NCBI GenBank assembly: GCA_026461075.1
Contig: JAPJNH010000091.1
Location: forward strand, 1-55,132
Reading direction: 5' to 3'
Length of the DNA: 55,132 nt
Origin: Chitinophagales bacterium
Lineage (GTDB): Bacteria; Bacteroidota; Bacteroidia; Chitinophagales; CAIODY01
Shown here: positions 18,683 to 31,989 of the stretch, piece after piece
Position numbering within the stretch: the first letter of the stretch is position 1
Layout of the letters: every line of letters starts with the position of its first letter
Notes under the pieces: model-generated
Databases searched by the model: none
What the model was told of the DNA's origin: nothing
Seen by the model: only the letters and a program-made list of their open reading frames with translations
Program-made: the position numbers and the translations under genes

Positions 18683-19867
18683 ATGAAAAAGTTTTTGCCA
18701 TTGTTTGTGCTTTTTTTGCTTGCCATTACATTTAGTGGCTTTGCTCAATCTGCCAGTGATAAAAAGGATACTACTCTCTTTGTAATTAAAACTGTAAACG
18801 GTGCAGAATATCTAGGGCATGTGCTCAGTGACGATGGCCGTGAGCTGTTTATAGAAACGAACACCATTGGAAAATTATATCTGCATAAGAATGAAGTTGT
18901 TTCTATGCAAAAGGTGGTCAATAAACAAGATGTTCAGGAGAAGATTGAGGCTGGGAATTATCAAAAACCTAAAGCGCCGGAAGACATTTTTACGACCCGT
19001 TATATTTTTACTACAAATGCGCTTCCTATTTCAAAAGGGGCCAATTATGGTATGACGAATATTCACGGACCAGAAATTCACTTCTCCATTACGGATCGTT
19101 TGAATGTTGGTATCATGACTAGCTGGATTGGCTCACCGCTTATTCTTGCTGCGAAATATACTTTCAAAAAGTCTGAATCGAAATTAAATTTCGCCCTTGG
19201 TACTTTATTAGGGACTTCAGGCTTTTTAAATCAAGGTCGTGGTTACATGGGTTTGCATTGGGGAACAGTAACGTTTGGCGATAGAGAGAATAATATCTCC
19301 TTATCTGCCGGAGGCGCGTATTTTAATATCGGCAATGAAGTGAGTCGTATTACGAATAAAGAATATAATGTTTATAGTAATGTTACTAAAGAGACATATT
19401 ACTATTCCAATAATCAAACTACCTACAGTAAAGTTTCGGGCGATGATATAGAAATAGGAAGTGGTTTGGCTGCAAAAACAGTATTTGGACCTATGCTCGG
19501 TATCGCTGGAATAAAGAAAATTGGTACCAAAGCAAGTTTTGTTTTAGATAATATATTATATATATATAAGCACGAATATCTTTGTAAAACAGCGACTGTG
19601 TTGGAGTATGTTAGTGGTACAGATCCTAATGGTAATTCGATTAATTCTACAACCTATAGCAATACATATGATTTTAATAAATCGTTGAAAACCGTGGTTA
19701 TTTTAATGCCAGGAATACGTATACAATCTAGTCTTAAAACGGCTTTCCAATTTGCACTTCCAATCATTCAGGTTTATGGAAAAGGCAATCGTAAAAATGT
19801 AAACGGCAAACAAGCAAAGTTCCTTGCGTTTCCAGCTCCGATGCTTACCATTTTCTTTAAATTCTAA
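18683..19867 (+). CDS. Hypothetical exported protein, probably beta-barrel, with a small N-terminal beta domain
   Basis: Signal peptide; TVNGAEYLGHVLSDDGRELFIETNTIGKLYLHKNEVVSMQK; alternating amphipathic strands. Confidence 0.6.
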   Translation: MKKFLPLFVLFLLAITFSGFAQSASDKKDTTLFVIKTVNGAEYLGHVLSDDGRELFIETNTIGKLYLHKNEVVSMQKVVNKQDVQEKIEAGNYQKPKAPEDIFTTRYIFTTNALPISKGANYGMTNIHGPEIHFSITDRLNVGIMTSWIGSPLILAAKYTFKKSESKLNFALGTLLGTSGFLNQGRGYMGLHWGTVTFGDRENNISLSAGGAYFNIGNEVSRITNKEYNVYSNVTKETYYYSNNQTTYSKVSGDDIEIGSGLAAKTVFGPMLGIAGIKKIGTKASFVLDNILYIYKHEYLCKTATVLEYVSGTDPNGNSINSTTYSNTYDFNKSLKTVVILMPGIRIQSSLKTAFQFALPIIQVYGKGNRKNVNGKQAKFLAFPAPMLTIFFKF

Positions 19868-19945: not shown

Positions 19946-20419
19946 TTAATCACAATATAAATGATCTGTAGTGCTGCCGTTATGACAACCATTACAAGCA
20001 CCTGTGCGTGTAACTTGACTCATATAATGCATGGTCCCACTAGGACCCTTTGTTGCAGGATATAAACCTCCACCAAAGTCAATCGCATTCGTTGTATAGA
20101 AATTGCCTTTTGCATCCACTTCTAATGTCGCAACTAGGTTACCAGAACCATTCGCTCCTGTATATAAATAGACGGTTGAATTCGGTTGTAAAGTCACTAA
20201 ATCTGCTTTGTACATGGTACCTGCTGCAGTAAACCAACCATCTCCTTGCCCGCCACTCTTATGACAATTCATACAGTTTTGCCCCATATTGTGACTTTCG
20301 TTTTCATTATATTTCGAGGTATTACTAGCGTTTGAACCTTCCTTTTCACAGGAAGTCTGAGAAAGGATTAATGCGCCTGCAATGGCAATGCTAAGCGCGC
20401 TGATGATTATTTTTTTCAT
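19946..20419 (-). CDS. Lipoprotein with two CxxCH haem-binding motifs
   Basis: Lipobox-like SQTSCEKEG; QNCMNCHKSGG and GACNGCHNGS. Confidence 0.72.
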   Translation of the reverse strand: MKKIIISALSIAIAGALILSQTSCEKEGSNASNTSKYNENESHNMGQNCMNCHKSGGQGDGWFTAAGTMYKADLVTLQPNSTVYLYTGANGSGNLVATLEVDAKGNFYTTNAIDFGGGLYPATKGPSGTMHYMSQVTRTGACNGCHNGSTTDHLYCD

Positions 20420-20430
20420 ATGAATGCTAT

Positions 20431-21492
20431 TTATTTTGTTTCTGTAAATGAATTCCAGCCTGCTGCTGCAATATCCACTTCACTTCCTTGCTTACTCACC
20501 AATCTTAACCCTAAGCTTGGATCTGTTATATGGCCGATGACACTGATGTCTTCTAAATCTTTCACTTTTTCGAAATCCTCTTGCTTAATGGTGAATAGAA
20601 GTTCGTAATCTTCACCTCCATTCATATAAGCCGTAATGGTATCGATTTTCATTTTCACAGCCATCTCGTAAGTATCGGAATGAATTGGGATTTTCTCTTC
20701 ATAAACTCGAGCACCGCAAATACTTTGTCGGCAAATATGTGTCAATTCGCTACTCAAACCATCCGAGATATCCATCATTGCTGTAGGTTGGACTCCCTTT
20801 TCTGCTAAAAGTTTAATGATATCTTTTCTGGCTTCTGGTTTTAATTGTCTTCCTAAAATATAGTGTTGATTTTCAAGGTCGGGTTGAACACCTGGATGTT
20901 CCTTAAATATTTGCTTTTCACGTTCTAGCAATTGCAATCCCATAAAAGCCGCGCCAAGGTCTCCAGAAACGCAAATCAAGTCGTTAAGCTTAGCTCCATT
21001 ACGATAGACCACCTTGTCCTTCTCTACTTCTCCAATCGCTGTAATGCTTACAAAAAGACCCTTTAAAGAGCTAGTAGTATCACCACCAATCATTTCTACG
21101 CCATAATTCTGACAAGCTAAATACATGCCGGTATAGAACTCTTCCATGGCCTCAACAGTGTATTTGCTAGAAATAGCAACAGAAACAGTGATGTATTTTG
21201 GTGTGCCGTTCATCGCATAAATATCGCTGAGGTTGACCACTACACTTTTGTAACCCAAATGTTTTAGCGGCGTATAGGCAAGGTCGAAGTGAATACCTTC
21301 AGCCAAAATATCAGTTGTTACGAGTTCGTAGTGTGTATCGGAGCCGGTCTCAATGACAGCACAATCATCACCAATACCTTTGATGATGCGATTATCTTGC
21401 GGAGGGAAATTCTTCGTTAGATGATCAATTAATCCAAATTCGCCTAATTGCGCAATAGGAGTAGTGCTCGGTGTTTTTTGTTCTTCTTGCAT
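20431..21492 (-). CDS. thiL: Thiamine-phosphate kinase
   Basis: GDDCAVI, TTDILAEGIHFDLAYTPLKHLGYKSVVVNLSDIYAMNG, ISDGLSSELTHI. Confidence 0.95.
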   Translation of the reverse strand: MQEEQKTPSTTPIAQLGEFGLIDHLTKNFPPQDNRIIKGIGDDCAVIETGSDTHYELVTTDILAEGIHFDLAYTPLKHLGYKSVVVNLSDIYAMNGTPKYITVSVAISSKYTVEAMEEFYTGMYLACQNYGVEMIGGDTTSSLKGLFVSITAIGEVEKDKVVYRNGAKLNDLICVSGDLGAAFMGLQLLEREKQIFKEHPGVQPDLENQHYILGRQLKPEARKDIIKLLAEKGVQPTAMMDISDGLSSELTHICRQSICGARVYEEKIPIHSDTYEMAVKMKIDTITAYMNGGEDYELLFTIKQEDFEKVKDLEDISVIGHITDPSLGLRLVSKQGSEVDIAAAGWNSFTETK

Positions 21493-21624: not shown

Positions 21625-22002
21625 ATGCGCAGACTTTTGTCCCTTTTACTGTTGACCCTTTGGTTGCTAATGAATGGCAATTCGTCTTATGCATTTATGA
21701 AAACTAATTGTTCGAATGTAAGTTCGAATTCTGTTGAGAAGTTGGGTGTTGATGATTTCAAATCATTACAACTATCACCTAGTGTGAATAACGAAGAGGA
21801 AAAGGTTTTCTATGTGGAGGAGGATGAGGAAGAGGAAGAAGACTTGCTGCATACGAATCTTCGTTTGCATGCTGTAATTTTATATCATTTATTATTTGAA
21901 TTTAGAGGAGCGGATTCGCAACTAAGTTGTTTTAGTTCGAAGTTTGATATCACTCCTGCATGCACACCTGTTTATTTAGTGTGCCAGAACATCAGAATAT
22001 AA
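21625..22002 (+). CDS. Small secreted acidic hypothetical protein
   Basis: Signal-peptide-like N-terminus and EEDEEEEED tract; 51 nt before SulP ORF on the same strand. Confidence 0.55.
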   Translation: MRRLLSLLLLTLWLLMNGNSSYAFMKTNCSNVSSNSVEKLGVDDFKSLQLSPSVNNEEEKVFYVEEDEEEEEDLLHTNLRLHAVILYHLLFEFRGADSQLSCFSSKFDITPACTPVYLVCQNIRI

Positions 22003-22053
22003 AAACGAATCTCTATTTCGTTTTAATCTGATTTTCTAATCTCCATCTTTCCG

Positions 22054-23682
22054 ATGGACTATTTTTTTTCTTTTATGTCATTAAATCTTTCTAAAGAGAC
22101 GCCAAAAGATGGTTTGGCTGGTCTTCGTCAAAATTTTCTAAGTGAAATAAGTTCTGGTTTTATTGTTTCATTATTAGCCTTGCCTTTGAGTTTGGGCATC
22201 GCTAAAGCAAGTGATTTTCCCAATCCAATGTATGGCGTATTAAGCGCGATTATTGGAGGAATTTTAGTCAGTCTTTTTGCAGGTTCACGATTAACGATTA
22301 AAGGTCCTGCTGCTGGATTAATTGTAATATGCGCAGGTTCGGTAGCTGCTTTCGGTGGTGGTGAAATGGGGTGGAAAATGACCTTAGGAGCGATTGTTGT
22401 CGCTTCCGGATTGCAAATATTATTTGGTCTTTTAAAATTGGGAAAATTGTCTGATTTCTTTCCTCTTTCTGCTGTGCATGGAATGCTAGCAGCGATTGGT
22501 TTGATAATTATCTCCAAACAATTGCACATCTTATTAGGGGTGAATCCGCTCAATGAGCATGGCAAGCCGATGGTTGAACCTCTTGAATTACTAGCGGCCT
22601 TACCCAAAACGTTTGCAAGTATTCCTGAACATCTTAATGTTGTAAAAGTTGGTTTAGTTTCTTTAGCCTTGGTATTGGGTATCCCCATGTTACCGTTCAA
22701 ATGGTTGAAGAAAATACCATTACCAGTAATCATACTCATAATTGCAATTCCTATGGCTGCAAGTTTGGGTTTGAAAGGAACTAAAGGTGCCTTATTGAAA
22801 TTCGACAAGCCGTTTACTGATTTGATTCATATTAATGCTTCATTCGGTGGTATGCAGCAAATGGGGACGTTTATTCAATATGTGATTCTGTTCGCAATCA
22901 TTGGTTCATTAGAATCACTATTGACTGCAAAAGCAATTGATTTATTAGATCCATACAAGCGTAAGTCTGATTTTAATAAAGATTTGATTGCTGTTGGTGG
23001 AGGTAACGTTTTGTCTAGTTTGTTAGGAGGTTTGCCGATGATTTCAGAAGTAGCTCGTAGCTCTTCGAATGTTAGTAACGGAGCAAAGACTCGTTGGGCT
23101 AACTTCTTTCATGGATTGTTTTTACTTTCGTTCATGTTATTAGCGGTACCTGTATTGCAATTAATACCAACAGCTGCTTTGAGTGCATTGCTAATAGGTG
23201 TTGGTATCAAGTTAGCGCATCCTAAGGAGTTTAAACACGCTTATCAAATAGGCAAGGAGCAATTGTTGGTATTTGTTGTAACGGTCCTGTTTACCTTAGG
23301 TGTCGATTTGTTGGTTGGTATTGCCGCGGGTATTGTAACGGAGTTTATAGTAAATTTGATAAATGGAAAGTCGTTTAAAAAAGCGTTGAAAGCGAATATT
23401 GAGTTGGTAGATTTAAATGAGGATACGCTTTTAATTCGATTAAATAACGCAGCCGTATTTTCTAACTTTATGGGAATTAAAAAGCAGTTGTATGCAATTG
23501 AAGGTGGTAAATTGATTCAAATAGATTGCAGTAATTGTAATTTCTTAGATCATTCTGCCATGGAAAATATTCATTTGTTTGAGCACGATTATGCACATAC
23601 GGGAGGACGAGTGGAATTAATCGGATTGAATCAACATCGTGCATTTTCGAACCATAGTTTGTCGGCTAGAAAATTAAATTAA
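22054..23682 (+). CDS. SulP family anion transporter with C-terminal STAS-like domain (candidate bicarbonate transporter)
   Basis: SGFIVSLLALPLSLGIAKASDFPNPMYGVLSAIIGGILVSLFAGSRLTIKGPAAGLIVI; C-terminal IQIDCSNCNFLDHSAMENI; alternative ATG at 22075. Confidence 0.92.
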   Translation: MDYFFSFMSLNLSKETPKDGLAGLRQNFLSEISSGFIVSLLALPLSLGIAKASDFPNPMYGVLSAIIGGILVSLFAGSRLTIKGPAAGLIVICAGSVAAFGGGEMGWKMTLGAIVVASGLQILFGLLKLGKLSDFFPLSAVHGMLAAIGLIIISKQLHILLGVNPLNEHGKPMVEPLELLAALPKTFASIPEHLNVVKVGLVSLALVLGIPMLPFKWLKKIPLPVIILIIAIPMAASLGLKGTKGALLKFDKPFTDLIHINASFGGMQQMGTFIQYVILFAIIGSLESLLTAKAIDLLDPYKRKSDFNKDLIAVGGGNVLSSLLGGLPMISEVARSSSNVSNGAKTRWANFFHGLFLLSFMLLAVPVLQLIPTAALSALLIGVGIKLAHPKEFKHAYQIGKEQLLVFVVTVLFTLGVDLLVGIAAGIVTEFIVNLINGKSFKKALKANIELVDLNEDTLLIRLNNAAVFSNFMGIKKQLYAIEGGKLIQIDCSNCNFLDHSAMENIHLFEHDYAHTGGRVELIGLNQHRAFSNHSLSARKLN

Positions 23683-23690
23683 GTAGGAAC

Positions 23691-24998
23691 ATGAAAAAAA
23701 ATATGTTGAAGAAACTTTTGTTAGCACTTATAACCTGTATAAGTGTAAACGCCTTTGCGACGAATACACCGAATAATCCATTAAGTTGGTCATTGAATGC
23801 TGATAATTCACACTATGTGAAAGTGAACGCCACAGGACAGTTCTGGTTACGTCATACAGACATGAATCCAGGTTCTACTTATAATGGCTATGCGAAGGAT
23901 AAAGGATTAGATATTGGTATCCGTCGTTTTCGTGTGCAATTTCAATCGCAACTAAGTGATCGTGTATTTATGTATGCGCAATTAGGCTTGAATAATTTTC
24001 ATTCTTATAGTGATCGTCAAACTGGTTTCTATGTAATGGATGCTTGTTCGGATTATGAAGTCATAAAAGATAAGTTGGCCTTAGGTGGAGGATTAAGTTC
24101 TTGGGTTGGGTTTTCGCGTTTTTCTTCTCCAGCTGTAGCCTCTATTATGGGTGTTGACGCACCTTTGCAATTTCAAACTACCAATGATGTAACGGATCAA
24201 TTCATCCGTCGTCTAGGGTTATATGCAAAAGGTTATTTGGGTAAATTGAATTATCGACTAGCAATGGTACAGCCTTTTGATATTCAAAAAAGTCCAATTG
24301 CTTCTTCTGTTACGATTTCAAAAAAATCCTCTTTCAGTCCACTGCCTCCTAAAATGCAATGGAATGCCTATCTGAATTATGAATTCAAGGATAAAGAGCA
24401 AAACAAAACACCCTACTTTGCCGGCACTTATTTAGGCGCCAAAAAAGTGAGTTCGCTAGGCGCAGGTATCACCTATCAGCCAAACGCGATGTGGGCTTTA
24501 AACAATAATAGCGACACCGTATTTCATGCGCTTCTATTCGCCTCGATCGATTATTTTTATGATGCTCCTGTCGGACATAAAGGTGCAGCTATTAGCTATT
24601 ATGCGAATGTAGCTTATACCGATTTTGGTCACAATTATCTTCGCATGCTTGGAGCTATGAATCCAATGACGGGTTCGAAAGATCTCACGATTTTAAACGG
24701 TGGTGGTAATCGATTTCCTGCCTATGGAACTGGGACTTCCTACTATATGCAGCTAGGTTATAAGCTATCTCAAAAAATAGCTAAGTTAAACTTTATGCCT
24801 TATGCGTCCATGCAAAGATCTTATTATACCGCACTTAAAGTGCCGATGAACTTTTTCGAAGCAGGTATGAATATTCTTTTAGATGGACATAATTCGAAGT
24901 TGACTGTCGGATATCAAGATCGTCCTGTTTTCAAAAATACAGGAGAGTTGATCACTCGTAAAGGCTCGCTCATTTTACAACTACAAACTGCTTTATAA
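23691..24998 (+). CDS. Outer-membrane porin-like beta-barrel protein
   Basis: Signal peptide; GLDIGIRRFRVQFQSQLSDRVFMYAQLGLNNF; QTGFYVMDACSDYEVIKDKLALGGGLSSWVG; typical of Bacteroidetes phosphate-selective-porin-like proteins. Confidence 0.78.
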   Translation: MKKNMLKKLLLALITCISVNAFATNTPNNPLSWSLNADNSHYVKVNATGQFWLRHTDMNPGSTYNGYAKDKGLDIGIRRFRVQFQSQLSDRVFMYAQLGLNNFHSYSDRQTGFYVMDACSDYEVIKDKLALGGGLSSWVGFSRFSSPAVASIMGVDAPLQFQTTNDVTDQFIRRLGLYAKGYLGKLNYRLAMVQPFDIQKSPIASSVTISKKSSFSPLPPKMQWNAYLNYEFKDKEQNKTPYFAGTYLGAKKVSSLGAGITYQPNAMWALNNNSDTVFHALLFASIDYFYDAPVGHKGAAISYYANVAYTDFGHNYLRMLGAMNPMTGSKDLTILNGGGNRFPAYGTGTSYYMQLGYKLSQKIAKLNFMPYASMQRSYYTALKVPMNFFEAGMNILLDGHNSKLTVGYQDRPVFKNTGELITRKGSLILQLQTAL

Positions 24999-25005
24999 TT
25001 TAGCA

Positions 25006-27555
25006 ATGGGAAAACATTCATTTGATATAGAGCATACCTTGCATGATATCATGCATTATCTGCCGTCGCAGATGACTTTAAAGGATTTCGTACATCATAA
25101 TTCTTTACATGCTTTTCAAAGTATGAAGTTTTATGAAGGAATTTTTAGAGCCTCTAAAATCTTTGGTTTCAAAGTAAGTTTACAGCTTTCTGAATTTAGA
25201 GAACTTTATAAAAAAGGTCGAATTACTGAATCTGTTATTGAACGGATAATCATCGAGCGCAAGGGGGAGGATAATTTAGAAGCTTGGGTAAAAAAAGTGC
25301 TTTACCAAGAATACGACTCTAGCATTCCTTCTAGGATTGGTTTGTTGCGAGCTAATTGGAAAAAGCAATATCGCCTTGATTTAGATACTTTGACACATCC
25401 ATTGTTGTATCGAATTTTAGCGTCTTATCTCGACCAAGGGATTTCAGTGTGGGAGTTTCCGGAGCAAACGGATTCTTTTTTAGGAGCAATTCGATCCATG
25501 GAACAAAACTCCGCAGCCTCTTTCTTTCGAACTGCTGAAGCAAAGGCTTTGCTAATGAAGGATGGTGTTCGTATCGAAGACTTGCTAAAACGAATAGTGG
25601 GTGACGAATCCTATTATGAACAGTATTTATATGATTTGTGTTTTAGTCATCGTGGTTGGAGTGGAATCGTAGCTGTTCTAACTGAAAATCCTGGAGCCTT
25701 ATTGTTAAAGCGTCCGATTACATTGCAGGAGCTCTGTATTTTTGAGCTTCTTCTAGAAATGGATGCGCTTCATGCGGAATTAGGAAGTGATTGGAAGCCG
25801 ATAGCTTCTTTCACACAGGATGCTCCGGTTGATATTTTGGCCGAAACATCTTTAACGGAGTTGGATGAAGTAATTAAGATTTGGCAGGACGCTTTCGAAT
25901 GGAATTATTATGATCAAGTAGTAACAGGTATACAAGGCAATTTGAAACGTACGCGGACCGTTCATGATAAAACAAGCTTTCAAGCAATATTTTGTATTGA
26001 TGAGCGTGAATGTTCCTTGCGTCGACATTTGGAGCTAGTAGCACCAGATGCAATTACTTTCGGAGCACCTGGTTTCTTTGGTGTGGAATTCTACTATCTA
26101 CAACAGGATACCAAGTTTTTAGATAAGCTTTGTCCTGCGCCAGTTACGCCTAAATATTTGATAAAGGAGATGGCCGCACACGTGCATCACGACTCCGATA
26201 TTATGTTCTCTCCAAGTTCTCATAAATTGGAGACGAATATATTTAGCACCTTTTATTTAGGGGCTTTAGCTTTACCGAAGCTACTACAAGGGATTTTCAT
26301 GCCGAAAATGACCCCTTCAATTTCAGATGCCTTCTCACACATGACGAAGGGGAGCGCATTAACGATTGAAAATAAAGCTGTGACCGATCGTGAATACGAT
26401 TTGCAAGTTGGATTTACAATTGAAGAAATGACAGTACGCGTGGAGAATTTCTTACGAGGTATTGGATTGATAGCAAATTTTGCCGATTTGATTTATGTGG
26501 TAGCACATGGTAGTTCGAGCGCTAATAATCCGCATCACGGAGCACACGATTGTGGCGCTTGTAGTGGGCGTCCTGGCGCAACGAATGCACGCGTCTTTGC
26601 GGGAATGGCTAATCATCCGAAAGTTCGTCAGGAACTTGCTTTAAAAGGGATAATTATACCTTCAACTACAGTGTTCGTTCCTGCTATGCATGATACCGCA
26701 GCAGATACTATTGGGTATTATGATGAAAACGGAATACCAGCCAATCAGTTGCATACACATCAAGAAGTTAAGCAAGCATTTGAGGATGCGCTTGATTTAA
26801 ATGCGAAAGAACGTTCGCGTCGTTTTGCTTCTATTTCTACCAAACAACCGATTAAAAAAATTCGTAAAGCAATTTATGATCGTTCGGTTGAATTGTTTGA
26901 ACCTCGACCGGAACTTGGTCATGGAACGAACTCATTATGTATTGTAGGACGAAGAGAACTTACGCGAGGTTTGTTTTTAGACCGACGTGCCTTTCTTAAT
27001 TCTTATGATTATCGTACAGATTTGGAAGGGAAATATTTAGCCAACGTTATGGCTCCTATTGGAGTGGTATGTGGTGGTATTAATTTGGAGTATTATTTCT
27101 CACGGGTTGATAATGTAAAATTAGGTTGTGGTACCAAATTGCCACATAACGTAGTCGGATTGATAGGCGTAGCTAATAGTAGTGATGGCGATTTACGCCC
27201 TGGTTTACCTTGGCAGATGATTGAGCCACATGATCCGGTTCGCTTATTAGTGGTCGTAGAACATTTTCCAGAGGTTGTTTTGAAGGTGATTCAAAGCAAT
27301 CCTGCCATGTATGAATGGTATAAGAATGAATGGGTTCATATTATGGCACTCCATCCTGATACGCAAGAGTTCTTTTATTATCGCAATGGTCATTTTCTAC
27401 ACTATCATGCGGAAGCATTGGATGCGAAGGCAGTAGCAAGCGTTCATCATTTATTTGAGGAAGCTCCAGAAATGATGACTAATGCGATTACGCATGCAAC
27501 TTTTGAGAATTTACCTATTTATCAAATTGAGAATAATATTCAATGGAAATCATAG
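25006..27555 (+). CDS. dabA: DabA, DUF2309 inorganic carbon transporter subunit
   Basis: FCIDERECSLRRHLE and AHGSSSANNPHHGAHDCGACSGRPGATNARVFAGMANHP; 849 aa. Confidence 0.93.
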   Translation: MGKHSFDIEHTLHDIMHYLPSQMTLKDFVHHNSLHAFQSMKFYEGIFRASKIFGFKVSLQLSEFRELYKKGRITESVIERIIIERKGEDNLEAWVKKVLYQEYDSSIPSRIGLLRANWKKQYRLDLDTLTHPLLYRILASYLDQGISVWEFPEQTDSFLGAIRSMEQNSAASFFRTAEAKALLMKDGVRIEDLLKRIVGDESYYEQYLYDLCFSHRGWSGIVAVLTENPGALLLKRPITLQELCIFELLLEMDALHAELGSDWKPIASFTQDAPVDILAETSLTELDEVIKIWQDAFEWNYYDQVVTGIQGNLKRTRTVHDKTSFQAIFCIDERECSLRRHLELVAPDAITFGAPGFFGVEFYYLQQDTKFLDKLCPAPVTPKYLIKEMAAHVHHDSDIMFSPSSHKLETNIFSTFYLGALALPKLLQGIFMPKMTPSISDAFSHMTKGSALTIENKAVTDREYDLQVGFTIEEMTVRVENFLRGIGLIANFADLIYVVAHGSSSANNPHHGAHDCGACSGRPGATNARVFAGMANHPKVRQELALKGIIIPSTTVFVPAMHDTAADTIGYYDENGIPANQLHTHQEVKQAFEDALDLNAKERSRRFASISTKQPIKKIRKAIYDRSVELFEPRPELGHGTNSLCIVGRRELTRGLFLDRRAFLNSYDYRTDLEGKYLANVMAPIGVVCGGINLEYYFSRVDNVKLGCGTKLPHNVVGLIGVANSSDGDLRPGLPWQMIEPHDPVRLLVVVEHFPEVVLKVIQSNPAMYEWYKNEWVHIMALHPDTQEFFYYRNGHFLHYHAEALDAKAVASVHHLFEEAPEMMTNAITHATFENLPIYQIENNIQWKS

Positions 27556-29402
27556 TATATATTTTGTTTTTACTCCCCATCCTAACTTTTTTTGGGAGTT
27601 TGTTTTTTAAGAATCACCAAGAGTATGGTCTTTCTAGAATGGCAACAGGAATGTCAGTCTTACAAGTGATAGGTTATCTTTCACTTGGTTTTCATTCCAT
27701 TCTTAATGCCAATGCTACGAAAGCAGTTCATCTTATTACGGCCTACGATAGAAATGAATTTCGTTTCGGAGTTGATTTCTTTATTGATAAGCTGAGTATT
27801 ACCTATGGACTTGTGGCGTTTTTTATTTTAGCCATTATTGCCAAAGTTAGCAAGACGTATATGCACAGAGAAAGTGGTTATAAGCGGTTTTATAATCACC
27901 TTTTACTCTTCGCGATAGGTTTGAACTTAGTTTGCTTATCTGGAAATTTCGAAACTTTTTTCTTAGGATGGGAAATAGTTGGAATAGCTTCATTCTTGCT
28001 GATCTCTTTTTACAGAGATCGGTATTTACCTGTGCGTAATGCGATGAAAGTATTGTCCTTTTACCGAATGGGTGACGTAGCGTTAATTGCCGGTGTTTGG
28101 TTCATTCATCATATGATGCATACCAATATCATGTTTACAGATTTGAATAGTGATAAATTCGCGCTCGCGTTAGGTGCACATCCTAATTACGTTTGGAGTA
28201 TTGCCTTGCTGTTCCTATTTGCTGCCGCAGTGAAGTCTGCGCAATTTCCATTCTCCTCCTGGTTGCCGCGTGCCATGGAAGGTCCAACGGTAAGTAGCGC
28301 CATTTTCTACGGATCTTTGAGCGTACATCTCGGAGTGTTTTTATTAATTCGTACGATGCCGATTTGGCAAGCGGTTGATTCTTTCCGGTATGTATTGGCT
28401 GCTTTAGGTTTAATTAGCTTTTTACTAGGTTCTTTAGCGGGCTCTGTTCAATCCACCGCTAAAACGCAAATTGCGTATTCTTCCTTAGCTCAAATTGGAA
28501 TTATTTTTGTTGAACTAGCTTTAGGATTACCGATTCTTGCACTCGTTCATTTCGCGTTGAATGCTATGTTGCGAGTTTATCAGTTACTGGTGTCTCCGTC
28601 TATTATGAGTTACTTGATTCATCAACAGTTCTTCAACTATGATCCAAATAAAAGATATATGTTGAGTCGCTTACCTAAGAAATTGCGTAATACACTTTAT
28701 ATTCTTTCTGTGAAGGAGTTTAACTTAGATTACTTCTGGTATCATGGGATATGGAAGCAATTGAAGAAATTAGGAGGAGCTTTTGTTTTTATGGGCAACA
28801 AATATATTTTAGCTATTCTTTCTTTGTCGGGTGTCGCCATTACTTTAGGACTTTATTTTGGAATGGATCGTTTCGAAATGCGATACATCTCCATTCTATT
28901 TGCCTTGTTATCCTTGATTTTAATTTTCTACGCTTGGACCAATCGTCGCTCTGCCTTAATGTCTTGGACAGCCATTGCAATTAGTCAGTTGTTTTTTATG
29001 CTTTCTATTGTTCAGAATCACACTTTTGATACAGAGCAAGTATTGATTTATTTCAGCGGCGAAATTGGTGCATTTGTCCTTGGTTGGTATGCATTATATA
29101 AAGTGCAAAGCGTAGAAAATTCAGTTAATCTAAATTCATTTCATGGTCATGTTTATGAACATCCAAAATATGCGCTCGCGTTTCTGGTAAGTGCATTAAC
29201 AATGATTGGGTTCCCTATTTCTCCAACATTCCTTGGTTACGACCTATTATTTACGGAAATCGAAGCAAACCAAACCATTTTATTAATCATAAGTTCGATA
29301 ACCTTCATTGTGCTAGAATTAGCTGTATTACGTATTTACGCGCGCGTTTTCTTAGGTCAGCACGTGAAGACTTATCATGAAATCGCCTTTAGAAGTTCTT
29401 AG
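27543..29402 (+). CDS. dabB: DabB, NuoL/proton-conducting membrane transporter subunit
   Basis: FFLGWEIVGIASFLLISFYRDR, KSAQFPFSSWLPRAMEGPTVSSAIFYGSL; 13-nt overlap with dabA. Confidence 0.9.
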   Translation: MEIIVYILFLLPILTFFGSLFFKNHQEYGLSRMATGMSVLQVIGYLSLGFHSILNANATKAVHLITAYDRNEFRFGVDFFIDKLSITYGLVAFFILAIIAKVSKTYMHRESGYKRFYNHLLLFAIGLNLVCLSGNFETFFLGWEIVGIASFLLISFYRDRYLPVRNAMKVLSFYRMGDVALIAGVWFIHHMMHTNIMFTDLNSDKFALALGAHPNYVWSIALLFLFAAAVKSAQFPFSSWLPRAMEGPTVSSAIFYGSLSVHLGVFLLIRTMPIWQAVDSFRYVLAALGLISFLLGSLAGSVQSTAKTQIAYSSLAQIGIIFVELALGLPILALVHFALNAMLRVYQLLVSPSIMSYLIHQQFFNYDPNKRYMLSRLPKKLRNTLYILSVKEFNLDYFWYHGIWKQLKKLGGAFVFMGNKYILAILSLSGVAITLGLYFGMDRFEMRYISILFALLSLILIFYAWTNRRSALMSWTAIAISQLFFMLSIVQNHTFDTEQVLIYFSGEIGAFVLGWYALYKVQSVENSVNLNSFHGHVYEHPKYALAFLVSALTMIGFPISPTFLGYDLLFTEIEANQTILLIISSITFIVLELAVLRIYARVFLGQHVKTYHEIAFRSS

Positions 29403-31989
29403 CACTGAATAGGTAAAAGGGGAGTAAACTTGTTTTTGTTTTTTTGTCCAACTCCTCATAACGTATCCAGATGTAATAGATTGCTGTTGGACCCACCCTG
29501 CAATCTTCTGTAAACCCATTCCATATTTGCAATTCTTGGTCGGATATGGTTTGGGGGTCACAGATTTTCTTGACAAGTTCTCCATCCACACTGAATACTT
29601 TTATCTCCGCAACTGATGTGTTGTCTGCCATTTTTTTCTTCAGATAAAGGTAATCGTCGACCCCGTCTCCGTTAGGCGTTAATAGCTTTGGATACAATAG
29701 CCAATCTTCGCTACTATCCTTACTTTGAATATCTACCGAAGCCGCGTTCTTTAATCCCGGTGTCCCATAACCATCATTCGCACAAGCACTCACCCAATTC
29801 GCTTTGTTAAGTCCCGACTGTGAACTACTTCTCCGTTCAAGTGCTACTCCTTCAACATCCTTAAGTAAGGGATGTTGCCAGTTTTCATGATAAGCTACTT
29901 CCTCGACTTTTATTCCGTGTCGATTGATTAATATAATTCTATCCGTATCATCATTCATCGAGCAAATGGTATGATATGCAATCACCTGTTCTCTTTGGTT
30001 GCTTGGATAGCTTAAACAAGTTTTATCCGGATCTTTCGAAAGGCAAAGGATTTCTTGTGGTAGAATATTGCGTGGAGTATTTATCAACTGGTAAAATTGT
30101 TCTGCGCTTCCATTTAACAATTTAGCGATTTTTAATTGGCTTAAATCCAAACTTCTCGTACTTGTGTTATACAACTCGATATAATCATCGTCCTCAGGTT
30201 TAGGATTAAATAGGATTTCATTAATACAGATCTCTCCACTATCGGTTTCAAAGCCATAGCCAATAGCAAGACTTTTATTTGTATTAATCGCTTGACCAAA
30301 ACAGTTTTCAATTCCTTGTAAACGAATCGTGTAAATCGAATGAGTGTCGAGTGCAACAGGACTAATAAATTGCAGTTGATTCGGTTGGTTATAATTATAG
30401 ATTATTCCCTTAAGCGTGTCTTCCGTTTCTTCCAAATAACAGCTTGCGTGAGAGATTTGATCGGCTCGCAGCGATTCATTCAATGTGATTGAGACGCGGT
30501 TTGAATTAATAAGCGCTCCGTGTAAACATTCAAAAGCTTCATGCGGACTAATCGTTTTTATTATACTGTTTCTTTCACCTGGCGTCCCGCCAATAGGTGA
30601 TACGCTCGCCTGCCAATTAGATGGATTATCGCACGGATGATTTAAATCTAGTCGTTCTATACTAAAGCCGCCATTACTTTTAAATGCATCTGCATAATAA
30701 CTTAAATCATAAGATATCACATCTACCGGCGTGCTGTCTTGGTTTAGTAAAACTAGCTTGTCGCCACCATTATTTAAGGAAGGGAAGTCATCCGTTTCAA
30801 TACAGTGTTGATTTGAAAAAAGCTTGCAATTGCTAGCAGCGCAAACAATTAAGTATTCATTCTTATGGATCCAATTTTCTTTTTGAAAACGTGTTAGTCG
30901 ACTACTGTCTCCGAAATAAAAATCATGCAAGTTAAAACTGTCCTTTGTCGGATTATACAACTCTACAAACTCGCAGTTAGGCAATCCGATACTCGGAGTC
31001 GGGTCTGCTAAAAACTCGCTAATCAAAATTTCATGATATGTACATTGATTGATTTCTAAAGGAGAATTTATTCCCGTCATAGTATTCCCGGCTTCGTCAC
31101 TGACATTGGAAGAAAATAGATAATGAAGTCCCTCACTCAATTTGGAAGAAGTAATCAAATGAACCTTGTCAAATTCGATTGCATCTCGAAATACACTATC
31201 CATCGAATTTCCGTCCAATAAGAAGTTTTCTTTTTTTAGAGATTCTTTCCGCACGGCTTCCGAATAATGCACAATAATCTCTTTTGGAAGAGAGTAGGAG
31301 AGTGCATTTACATAGGGAGCCTGATAGTCGACAATACTATCCCCAATATACCAATCATCTACGAAAAATAATTTTGCGCGCGTACTCGTATAAACCATTC
31401 GTATGCCTGTTGCACTACATGCAAACGAAATACTATCCCGAATATCTGTTCTAAATTCAAACTGTCTACTACCTAAACTATCGATGCTGATTTGCCAATT
31501 TGGACGTTGATATCTAATACGCAACCTAAATGTGTTCTCATTTTTAGCAAGTAATCCCAAAGTCCCGTTCGTCAGTTGAGAGATAGTCTGCCCCTCTTGT
31601 TTCATAAAACGCCATGTATCATTGTTTCCGTTTTCCCCGACTTCTATAAAATAAGCTTTAAAGCTAGTATCTGACTGTTTATAGGAATTACTCGCCAAGT
31701 ACCACCTGAATTGGTTGGATGCAGATGGTGAAAATTTTAATTGTACCCATAACTGCTGTTCCTGCCAAGTACTATCAATATGCTGATGCCACAAATTAGC
31801 TGTGTCTGGGTGGTTGAATCCCGCGAGCTGTAACTGTTGTAGCGTGTTGATTTGAAAATTTCCTGTATCGCCAATAAATTCATTTTTATTCAATGAATGA
31901 AAGTGTTCATCAAATAAAATTGCTTGTGCAAACGACTTTGTCTGCCACAATAAAAGGATACCTATAAGAATGCTTTTCCACGCTTGCAT
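29389..31989 (-). CDS. Secreted lamin-tail-domain protein with TPNGDG-type C-terminal domain
   Basis: Two lamin-tail-like regions (ILISEFLADPTPSIGLPNCEFVELYNPTKDSFNL; ICINEILFNPKPEDDDYIELYNTSTRSLDLS) and C-terminal LLTPNGDGVDDYLYLKK. Confidence 0.85.
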   Translation of the reverse strand: MQAWKSILIGILLLWQTKSFAQAILFDEHFHSLNKNEFIGDTGNFQINTLQQLQLAGFNHPDTANLWHQHIDSTWQEQQLWVQLKFSPSASNQFRWYLASNSYKQSDTSFKAYFIEVGENGNNDTWRFMKQEGQTISQLTNGTLGLLAKNENTFRLRIRYQRPNWQISIDSLGSRQFEFRTDIRDSISFACSATGIRMVYTSTRAKLFFVDDWYIGDSIVDYQAPYVNALSYSLPKEIIVHYSEAVRKESLKKENFLLDGNSMDSVFRDAIEFDKVHLITSSKLSEGLHYLFSSNVSDEAGNTMTGINSPLEINQCTYHEILISEFLADPTPSIGLPNCEFVELYNPTKDSFNLHDFYFGDSSRLTRFQKENWIHKNEYLIVCAASNCKLFSNQHCIETDDFPSLNNGGDKLVLLNQDSTPVDVISYDLSYYADAFKSNGGFSIERLDLNHPCDNPSNWQASVSPIGGTPGERNSIIKTISPHEAFECLHGALINSNRVSITLNESLRADQISHASCYLEETEDTLKGIIYNYNQPNQLQFISPVALDTHSIYTIRLQGIENCFGQAINTNKSLAIGYGFETDSGEICINEILFNPKPEDDDYIELYNTSTRSLDLSQLKIAKLLNGSAEQFYQLINTPRNILPQEILCLSKDPDKTCLSYPSNQREQVIAYHTICSMNDDTDRIILINRHGIKVEEVAYHENWQHPLLKDVEGVALERRSSSQSGLNKANWVSACANDGYGTPGLKNAASVDIQSKDSSEDWLLYPKLLTPNGDGVDDYLYLKKKMADNTSVAEIKVFSVDGELVKKICDPQTISDQELQIWNGFTEDCRVGPTAIYYIWIRYEELDKKTKTSLLPFYLFSAKNF

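Follow-up and report, generated by a model that had tools for sequence, protein, structure and literature searches.

Pumps for dissolved inorganic carbon (DIC) of the DAB type occur in many heterotrophs. The locus described here raises the question of why a Chitinophagales bacterium encodes such a pump directly beside an anion transporter and a probable outer-membrane porin, and what role is played by the small secreted protein encoded at the head of the block. Our analysis suggests, with somewhat better than even confidence, that the block is a single DIC-uptake unit headed by a self-stalling, Sec-exported regulatory leader.

Architecture of the locus

The block occupies positions 21625–29402 of the window, the whole 55,132-nucleotide stretch of DNA that was analysed. 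A recheck of the open reading frames (ORFs) at these coordinates confirmed the layout given in an earlier note: five consecutive plus-strand ORFs with gaps of 51, 8 and 7 nt, a 13-nt overlap between dabA and dabB, and minus-strand genes on both sides. The left flank is a thiL-like AIRS protein (20431–21492), the right flank a lamin-tail/CHU_C protein (29389–31989) whose gene shares 14 nt with the end of dabB. The features of the block are:

21625–22002, plus strand: probable leader ORF, 125 aa, with signal peptide, acidic patch and C-terminal motif TPVYLVCQNIRI abutting the stop codon
21793–21843, plus strand: acidic-patch codons EEEKVFYVEEDEEEEED, about 53–69 residues from the leader C-terminus
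21964–22002, plus strand: codons of the putative C-terminal stalling motif and stop, from motif search and held-out test
22002–22024, plus strand: predicted hairpin 1 (AAAACGAA / TTCGTTTT), beginning at the leader stop codon; z of the window gap −3.8
22042–22073, plus strand: predicted hairpin 2 (TCCATctttccgATGGA), then a T-rich tract; terminator-like, spanning the annotated SulP ATG
22054–23682, plus strand: SulP-family anion transporter, 542 aa, with a C-terminal STAS-like region; start probably at 22075
23691–24998, plus strand: probable outer-membrane porin, ExtI-like, 435 aa, from a sub-cutoff NCBIfam match and cluster conservation
25006–27555, plus strand: dabA, DIC pump subunit, 849 aa, from Pfam, the PDB 9rd0 match and ligand residues
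27543–29402, plus strand: dabB, NuoL/Mrp-like proton-channel subunit, long form of 619 aa, from Pfam and PDB 9rd0

The annotated ATG of SulP at 22054 sits in a hairpin with a T-run behind it; in a sister species (L056), the start is equivalent to a later codon. The true start is therefore probably the ATG at 22075.

The 2.5-Mb genome is 99.7% complete and contains a single DabA, which is 91% identical to that of the nearest named relative, a Chitinophagales metagenome-assembled genome (L002). The earlier note had seen neither RuBisCO nor a separate carbonic anhydrase (CA) in the window. A whole-genome search likewise found no RuBisCO, but one beta-CA (C127) is encoded outside the block, elsewhere in the genome.

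Next to the thiL-like gene lies a minus-strand, lipoprotein-like ORF of 157 aa (19946–20419) with CxxCH motifs and a weak match to Cytochrome_C7. Paralogous secreted proteins of 315–396 aa with a common VIKTVNGAEYLAKVLSDDGRE-type start are encoded at 18683–19867 of the window and at 2668–4864 of L002; in the sister species they occur in tandem.

Components of the uptake system

The SulP protein belongs to its family by Pfam (Sulfate_transp, PF00916; 1.5e-57) and its structure matches are to SLC26/SulP; against the NCBIfam BicA equivalog it scores 127.5 bits, far under the cutoff of 880. DabA matches PF10070 at 9.2e-210, with 699 bits against a cutoff of 25, and DabA2 of PDB 9rd0 at 6e-63. Its beta-CA-like ligand residues C330, D332, H501 and C516 fit the patterns C-x-D-x-R and H-x14-C, both of which are present in all 102 DabA proteins of the first kind (clade 1, see below). 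The ligand spacing was compared with what we take to be that of Halothiobacillus DabA. The adjoining DabB is a proton-channel-like subunit by its matches to Proton_antipo_M (PF00361; 2.6e-36) and to DabB2 (9rd0_B; 1.6e-28).

The 435-aa ORF has no Pfam match and reaches 38.7 bits (5e-10) with the NCBIfam porin ExtI, for which the curated cutoff is 150. Its AlphaFold model (pLDDT 42) was too poor for use and was set aside. We regard the ORF as a probable outer-membrane porin because it matches ExtI, has a hydrophobic helix at its N-terminus as well as predicted strands, and because of its neighbourhood. Of the parts named in the earlier note, SulP, DabA and DabB are thus borne out by Pfam; the porin, with its sub-cutoff match and poor model, is the weaker assignment.

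Compared with the DabA2–DabB2 pump of PDB 9rd0, the window is alike in both subunits, in the C-x-D and H-x14-C patterns and in the proton-channel-like nature of DabB. It differs in that DabA precedes a 619-aa DabB, that SulP and an outer-membrane barrel adjoin the pump, that a leader ORF stands at the head and that the host lacks RuBisCO.

Conservation of the cluster across Bacteroidota

The PF10070 search covered roughly 1,250 genome slots of Bacteroidota across a number of taxonomic ranges, some genomes being included more than once, and the neighbourhoods of 120 loci plus ten named loci were compared. The loci are of two kinds. The first, to which the window belongs, has DabA followed by a DabB of about 620 aa; the second (clade 2) has DabB, of about 490 aa, followed by DabA, and is without SulP. 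Both ends are complete in 87 clusters of the first kind; the counts below come from phylogenetically related genomes and are not independent trials. SulP lies on the same strand in 67 of the 87, an outer-membrane barrel is present in 40 (porin in 20, DUF2490 in 18, OprP in 3, two kinds in only one), and 22 include a beta-CA. The genes have no fixed order, and the clustering recurs in dozens of genera. The gene-neighbourhood search proposed in the earlier note therefore finds the combination of SulP, barrel, DabA and DabB again in Bacteroidota, in permuted order.

Since most related loci cluster the same genes, the five-gene arrangement is not explained by chance. That the genes are separately transcribed chance neighbours is very improbable given this recurrence under permutation and, within the window, the gaps of 7–8 nt and the overlap.

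Gene fusions link the components further. In four Chitinophagales (L110, L115, L117 and L121), a full-length SulP is fused to the N-terminus of DabA in frames of 1,393–1,423 aa, with a leader directly upstream. At one further locus, sequence inspection shows a 738-aa ORF (L152) in which SulP carries a C-terminal beta-CA-like domain. These fusions provide strong evidence, at the level of sequence, that SulP and DabA would serve one substrate chain. The SulP family is broad, and the low BicA score would suit a carrier of another anion (sulfate, dicarboxylate or chloride) in a cluster for general anion transport or pH homeostasis; both types of fusion, together with the beta-CA genes in the clusters, speak against this reading, which we consider quite unlikely. 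The comparative evidence instead gives good support to the five-gene block as a putative conserved operon for bicarbonate/CO2 uptake. It gives no such support to a particular selectivity of the porin, or to the suggestion of the earlier note that the imported carbon may serve anaplerotic carboxylation, accD being in the same window.

DUF2490 replaces the porin in many clusters (L003, L009, L010, L053, L077 and others). Its AlphaFold model is beta-rich and barrel-like (pLDDT 77), and its Foldseek matches, none at E<=0.001, include the outer-membrane barrels NanC and CymA; on this modelling, DUF2490 may be an outer-membrane channel or partner for inorganic carbon. At two loci (L063 and L069), a divergently placed 734-aa SulP with a C-terminal extension of about 200 aa, of no recognised kind, lies beside a leader-headed dabAB; in L063 it is itself preceded by a leader-like ORF (L063_31).

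A small signal-peptide ORF heads the clusters

Candidate leaders were listed as small ORFs with a hydrophobic N-terminus lying directly 5′ of the gene that opens a unit. Position, length and hydrophobicity served as filters; charge and C-terminus were not used. Start codons were set by the longest frame. Removal of overlapping or spurious frames by eye left 92 leaders, a step that could slightly favour motif-bearing frames. Of the 87 complete clusters, 76 contain a signal-peptide ORF of about 75–180 aa and 72 have it as the first gene; no leader was detectable in the other 11. The ORF precedes whichever gene heads the unit, be it SulP, DabA, beta-CA, porin or DUF2490, and in several split clusters (e.g., L144, L153, L159, L160 and L166) each unit has a leader of its own. 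The identical procedure gave no motif-bearing leader at 25 clade 2 loci.

The window leader has no family match at E<=0.001 in Pfam or NCBIfam, and no paralogues of it were found in its own genome. Sequence conservation among the leaders is low. The window leader is 50% identical to its counterpart in L056, whereas the remaining four proteins reach 82–92%; the features conserved between the two leaders are the signal peptide, the patch charge and the segments LHAVILY and TPVYLxxQNxRI.

Motif at the C-terminus and acidic patch at a preferred distance

Seventy leaders carry an 11-residue motif, P-[LI]-[YF]-[IL]-L-[FY]-[HRC]-[NS]-[LFW]-[RK]-[IV], which abuts the stop codon exactly in 34 of them. 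In five-fold cross-validation with relatives confined to one fold, and with a background of 3,070 further small ORFs taken from these loci, 97%, 91% and 69% of the held-out leaders scored above the 95th, 99th and 99.9th background percentiles, respectively. PP in the last 12 residues, typically as PPP or PPE/PPD, takes the place of the motif in 21 of the 92 leaders, most of which precede SulP-CA or CA-SulP units.

Across 91 leaders, net negative charge peaks sharply 49–66 residues from the C-terminus. In motif-type (type 1) leaders, the peak lies at a median of 56.5 residues (MAD 2.5), with D/E making up 53% of residues at positions −55 to −57. The observed standard deviation of the peak position, 10.6, compares with 21.8 ± 1.3 in 500 within-protein residue shuffles (minimum 17.2). 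Measured over all leaders, the patch is more tightly placed relative to the C-terminus (MAD 4.0) than to the N-terminal hydrophobic segment (MAD 8.0), although the distance to the C-terminus correlates with mature length (r 0.39), which counts against strict C-terminal anchoring.

The small ORF could encode a mature periplasmic accessory protein, for example one that binds cations or bicarbonate and assists the porin, SulP or DabA. Its signal peptide, acidic mature region and strong association with the cluster would all fit. An accessory protein accounts less well for the fast divergence, for conservation centred on the extreme C-terminus and on the spacing to it, and for a position nearly always at the head of a unit, before a long structured gap and duplicated per unit. 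We therefore regard this explanation as unlikely and the first ORF as probably a regulatory leader peptide that gates the uptake genes. The earlier account of an acidic secreted protein on a DIC transport route is revised accordingly: the signal peptide, the acidic region and, through the cluster, the fusions and the DabA ligands, the DIC-uptake reading all stand, whereas the first ORF fits a regulatory leader better than a part of the transport route.

Structure of the gap and promoter patterns

Leader and following gene are separated by a median of 103 nt, as against 9 nt between other cluster genes. RNA following the leader stop is more structured than dinucleotide shuffles (mean z −1.69), with control values of −0.82 for other 3′ ends, −0.50 for the leader interior and −0.17 for the region upstream of the leader. 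Of 88 gaps examined, 20 contain a terminator-like hairpin, four times the 5.0 expected from shuffles. The window and L056 each have two predicted hairpins at matching places and of different sequence. The idea that all gaps share a hairpin with a T-run behind it was rejected, since no T excess is seen 3′ of the strongest hairpin in each gap. In a model of start accessibility under ribosome masking, the average effect was small (15 loci up and 2 down of 87), with none in the window gap, and we therefore do not claim a specific RNA switch.

A Bacteroidota-type promoter pattern was found upstream of 20 of 91 leaders, compared with 4.8% for other genes, and in the gap after the leader in 2 of 91. 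There is no strict match upstream of the window leader, and a sigma-70 scan of the window locus gave hits at chance level only.

Comparison with known regulatory leaders

With their C-terminal motif, patch spacing and long structured gap, the leaders of these clusters fit the plan of co-translationally exported arrest leaders such as CutF and SecM. In the small Sec-exported protein CutF, a stall-like C-terminus and an exported copper motif control cutO via a stem-loop in the following gap (cutFOG; PMC9973294). Like CutF and CutF-like uORFs, the window leader is a signal-peptide ORF at the head of an operon, on the same strand and upstream, shorter than 150 aa and hydrophobic at its N-terminus, with a stall-like C-terminus, a putative sensor segment in the exported part and, as in L056, predicted stem-loops in the gap. 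In contrast to CutF, it ends in ...PACTPVYLVCQNIRI with no PP in its last 15 residues, has an acidic patch in place of a CxxxC motif or His cluster, neither of which it contains, and precedes genes for inorganic carbon rather than metals.

Within Bacteroidota, the HYC_CC_PP family (NCBIfam NF047658) is likewise small, bears a signal peptide and ends in ...FRI or ...FLI at the stop; it holds a residue pair at a fixed C-terminal distance and often lies ahead of an RND-type pump gene (pump identity judged by eye). The copies inspected (L174–L202) have a signal peptide, PP and the FRI/FLI ending, with the CC pair 70–77 residues from the C-terminus in most, and an ORF in a copper context in L074 matches the family. 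The window leader itself has no match to the NF047658 model at E<=10, and its acidic patch is centred about 56 residues from the C-terminus as against about 73 for the cysteine pair. From these sequence features, the HYC_CC_PP leader looks like a metal-sensing counterpart of the DIC leader, which suggests, as a lead, that the two may belong to one modular class in which the sensor segment can be swapped.

This comparison bears on what the leader might sense. The peptide may be a co-translational sensor whose patch reads chemistry (protonation, Ca2+/Mg2+, or a periplasmic pH shifted by CO2/HCO3−) and not electrical force. Acidic clusters bind cations or protonate, and leaders of the CutF, CruR and HYC_CC_PP type hold ligand-binding residues at a fixed place, as the narrow range of the CC pair illustrates. 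The acidic peak, however, lies nearer to the C-terminus than those cysteines, in a stretch expected to be within the SecYEG pore. Chemical sensing is thus a possibility to be taken seriously, though not the one we favour.

Two further groups provide precedents. Signal-bearing uORFs of Bacteroidota have been demonstrated to arrest ribosomes that hold the stop codon in their A site (PMC10987492); these uORFs precede secA/secDF and have a motif ending in proline, and the passages on which we draw mention no acidic patch. SecM, MifM and VemP, in which pulling by the export machinery relieves the stall, set the precedent for force sensing and differ from the window leader in motif and targets.

Proposed mechanism

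Clustering, gene content, the position of the leader, its motif and patch spacing, and the structure of the gap come directly from the sequences. We infer co-transcription, substrate, stalling and the direction of control, and propose the following scheme for a force-sensing leader. The leader and sulP-porin-dabAB would form one transcription unit for DIC uptake in a host without RuBisCO. The outer-membrane barrel would admit HCO3−, and a bicarbonate-type SulP and a DabAB pump driven by the proton-motive force (PMF) would accumulate it in the cytosol. The leader would be exported through SecYEG during its own translation, and its last ~11 residues would stall the ribosome at or beside the stop codon. 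Engagement of a nascent chain with the translocon begins at a length of about 45 residues (PMC7886326). At ~56 residues from the peptidyl-transferase centre, the acidic patch would be in, or just leaving, SecYEG during the stall and would set the speed of chain pulling and stall release. A stalled or released ribosome would in turn alter hairpin folding in the gap and thereby set either read-through into the uptake genes or their translation.

Release of the stall would depend on translocation force, sensed via SecYEG. According to PMC6028853, which cites Ismail 2015, the voltage across the membrane exerts a pull on acidic residues of engineered chains in SecYEG and frees a SecM stall.

DAB pumps are thought to be driven by the PMF, which makes it the most interesting input to consider. 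We tentatively suggest that the leader may respond to the transmembrane voltage that the pump uses up. That it is a natural voltage sensor tuning a PMF-driven pump to the PMF, and belongs to a broader modular class in Bacteroidota that combines one stall module with exchangeable sensors, is a more speculative proposal that we consider doubtful at present.

Implications

In the literature searched, which covers the field in part and is no proof of novelty, we found no description of how DAB pumps are controlled in Bacteroidota. Self-stalling sensor peptides of this kind have so far been described for copper; here, one appears to lie ahead of carbon-uptake genes. The SulP-DabA fusions provide sequence-level evidence for joint action of SulP and DAB. 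If confirmed, a leader whose export is coupled to pump expression would constitute a direct control step, and would add carbon supply to the metals and Sec genes for which export-coupled leaders are known. It may also be a natural case of the pulling force on acidic residues known from engineered SecM constructs. If the modular class exists, Bacteroidota would use an acidic sensor for DIC operons and a cysteine pair for metal pumps.
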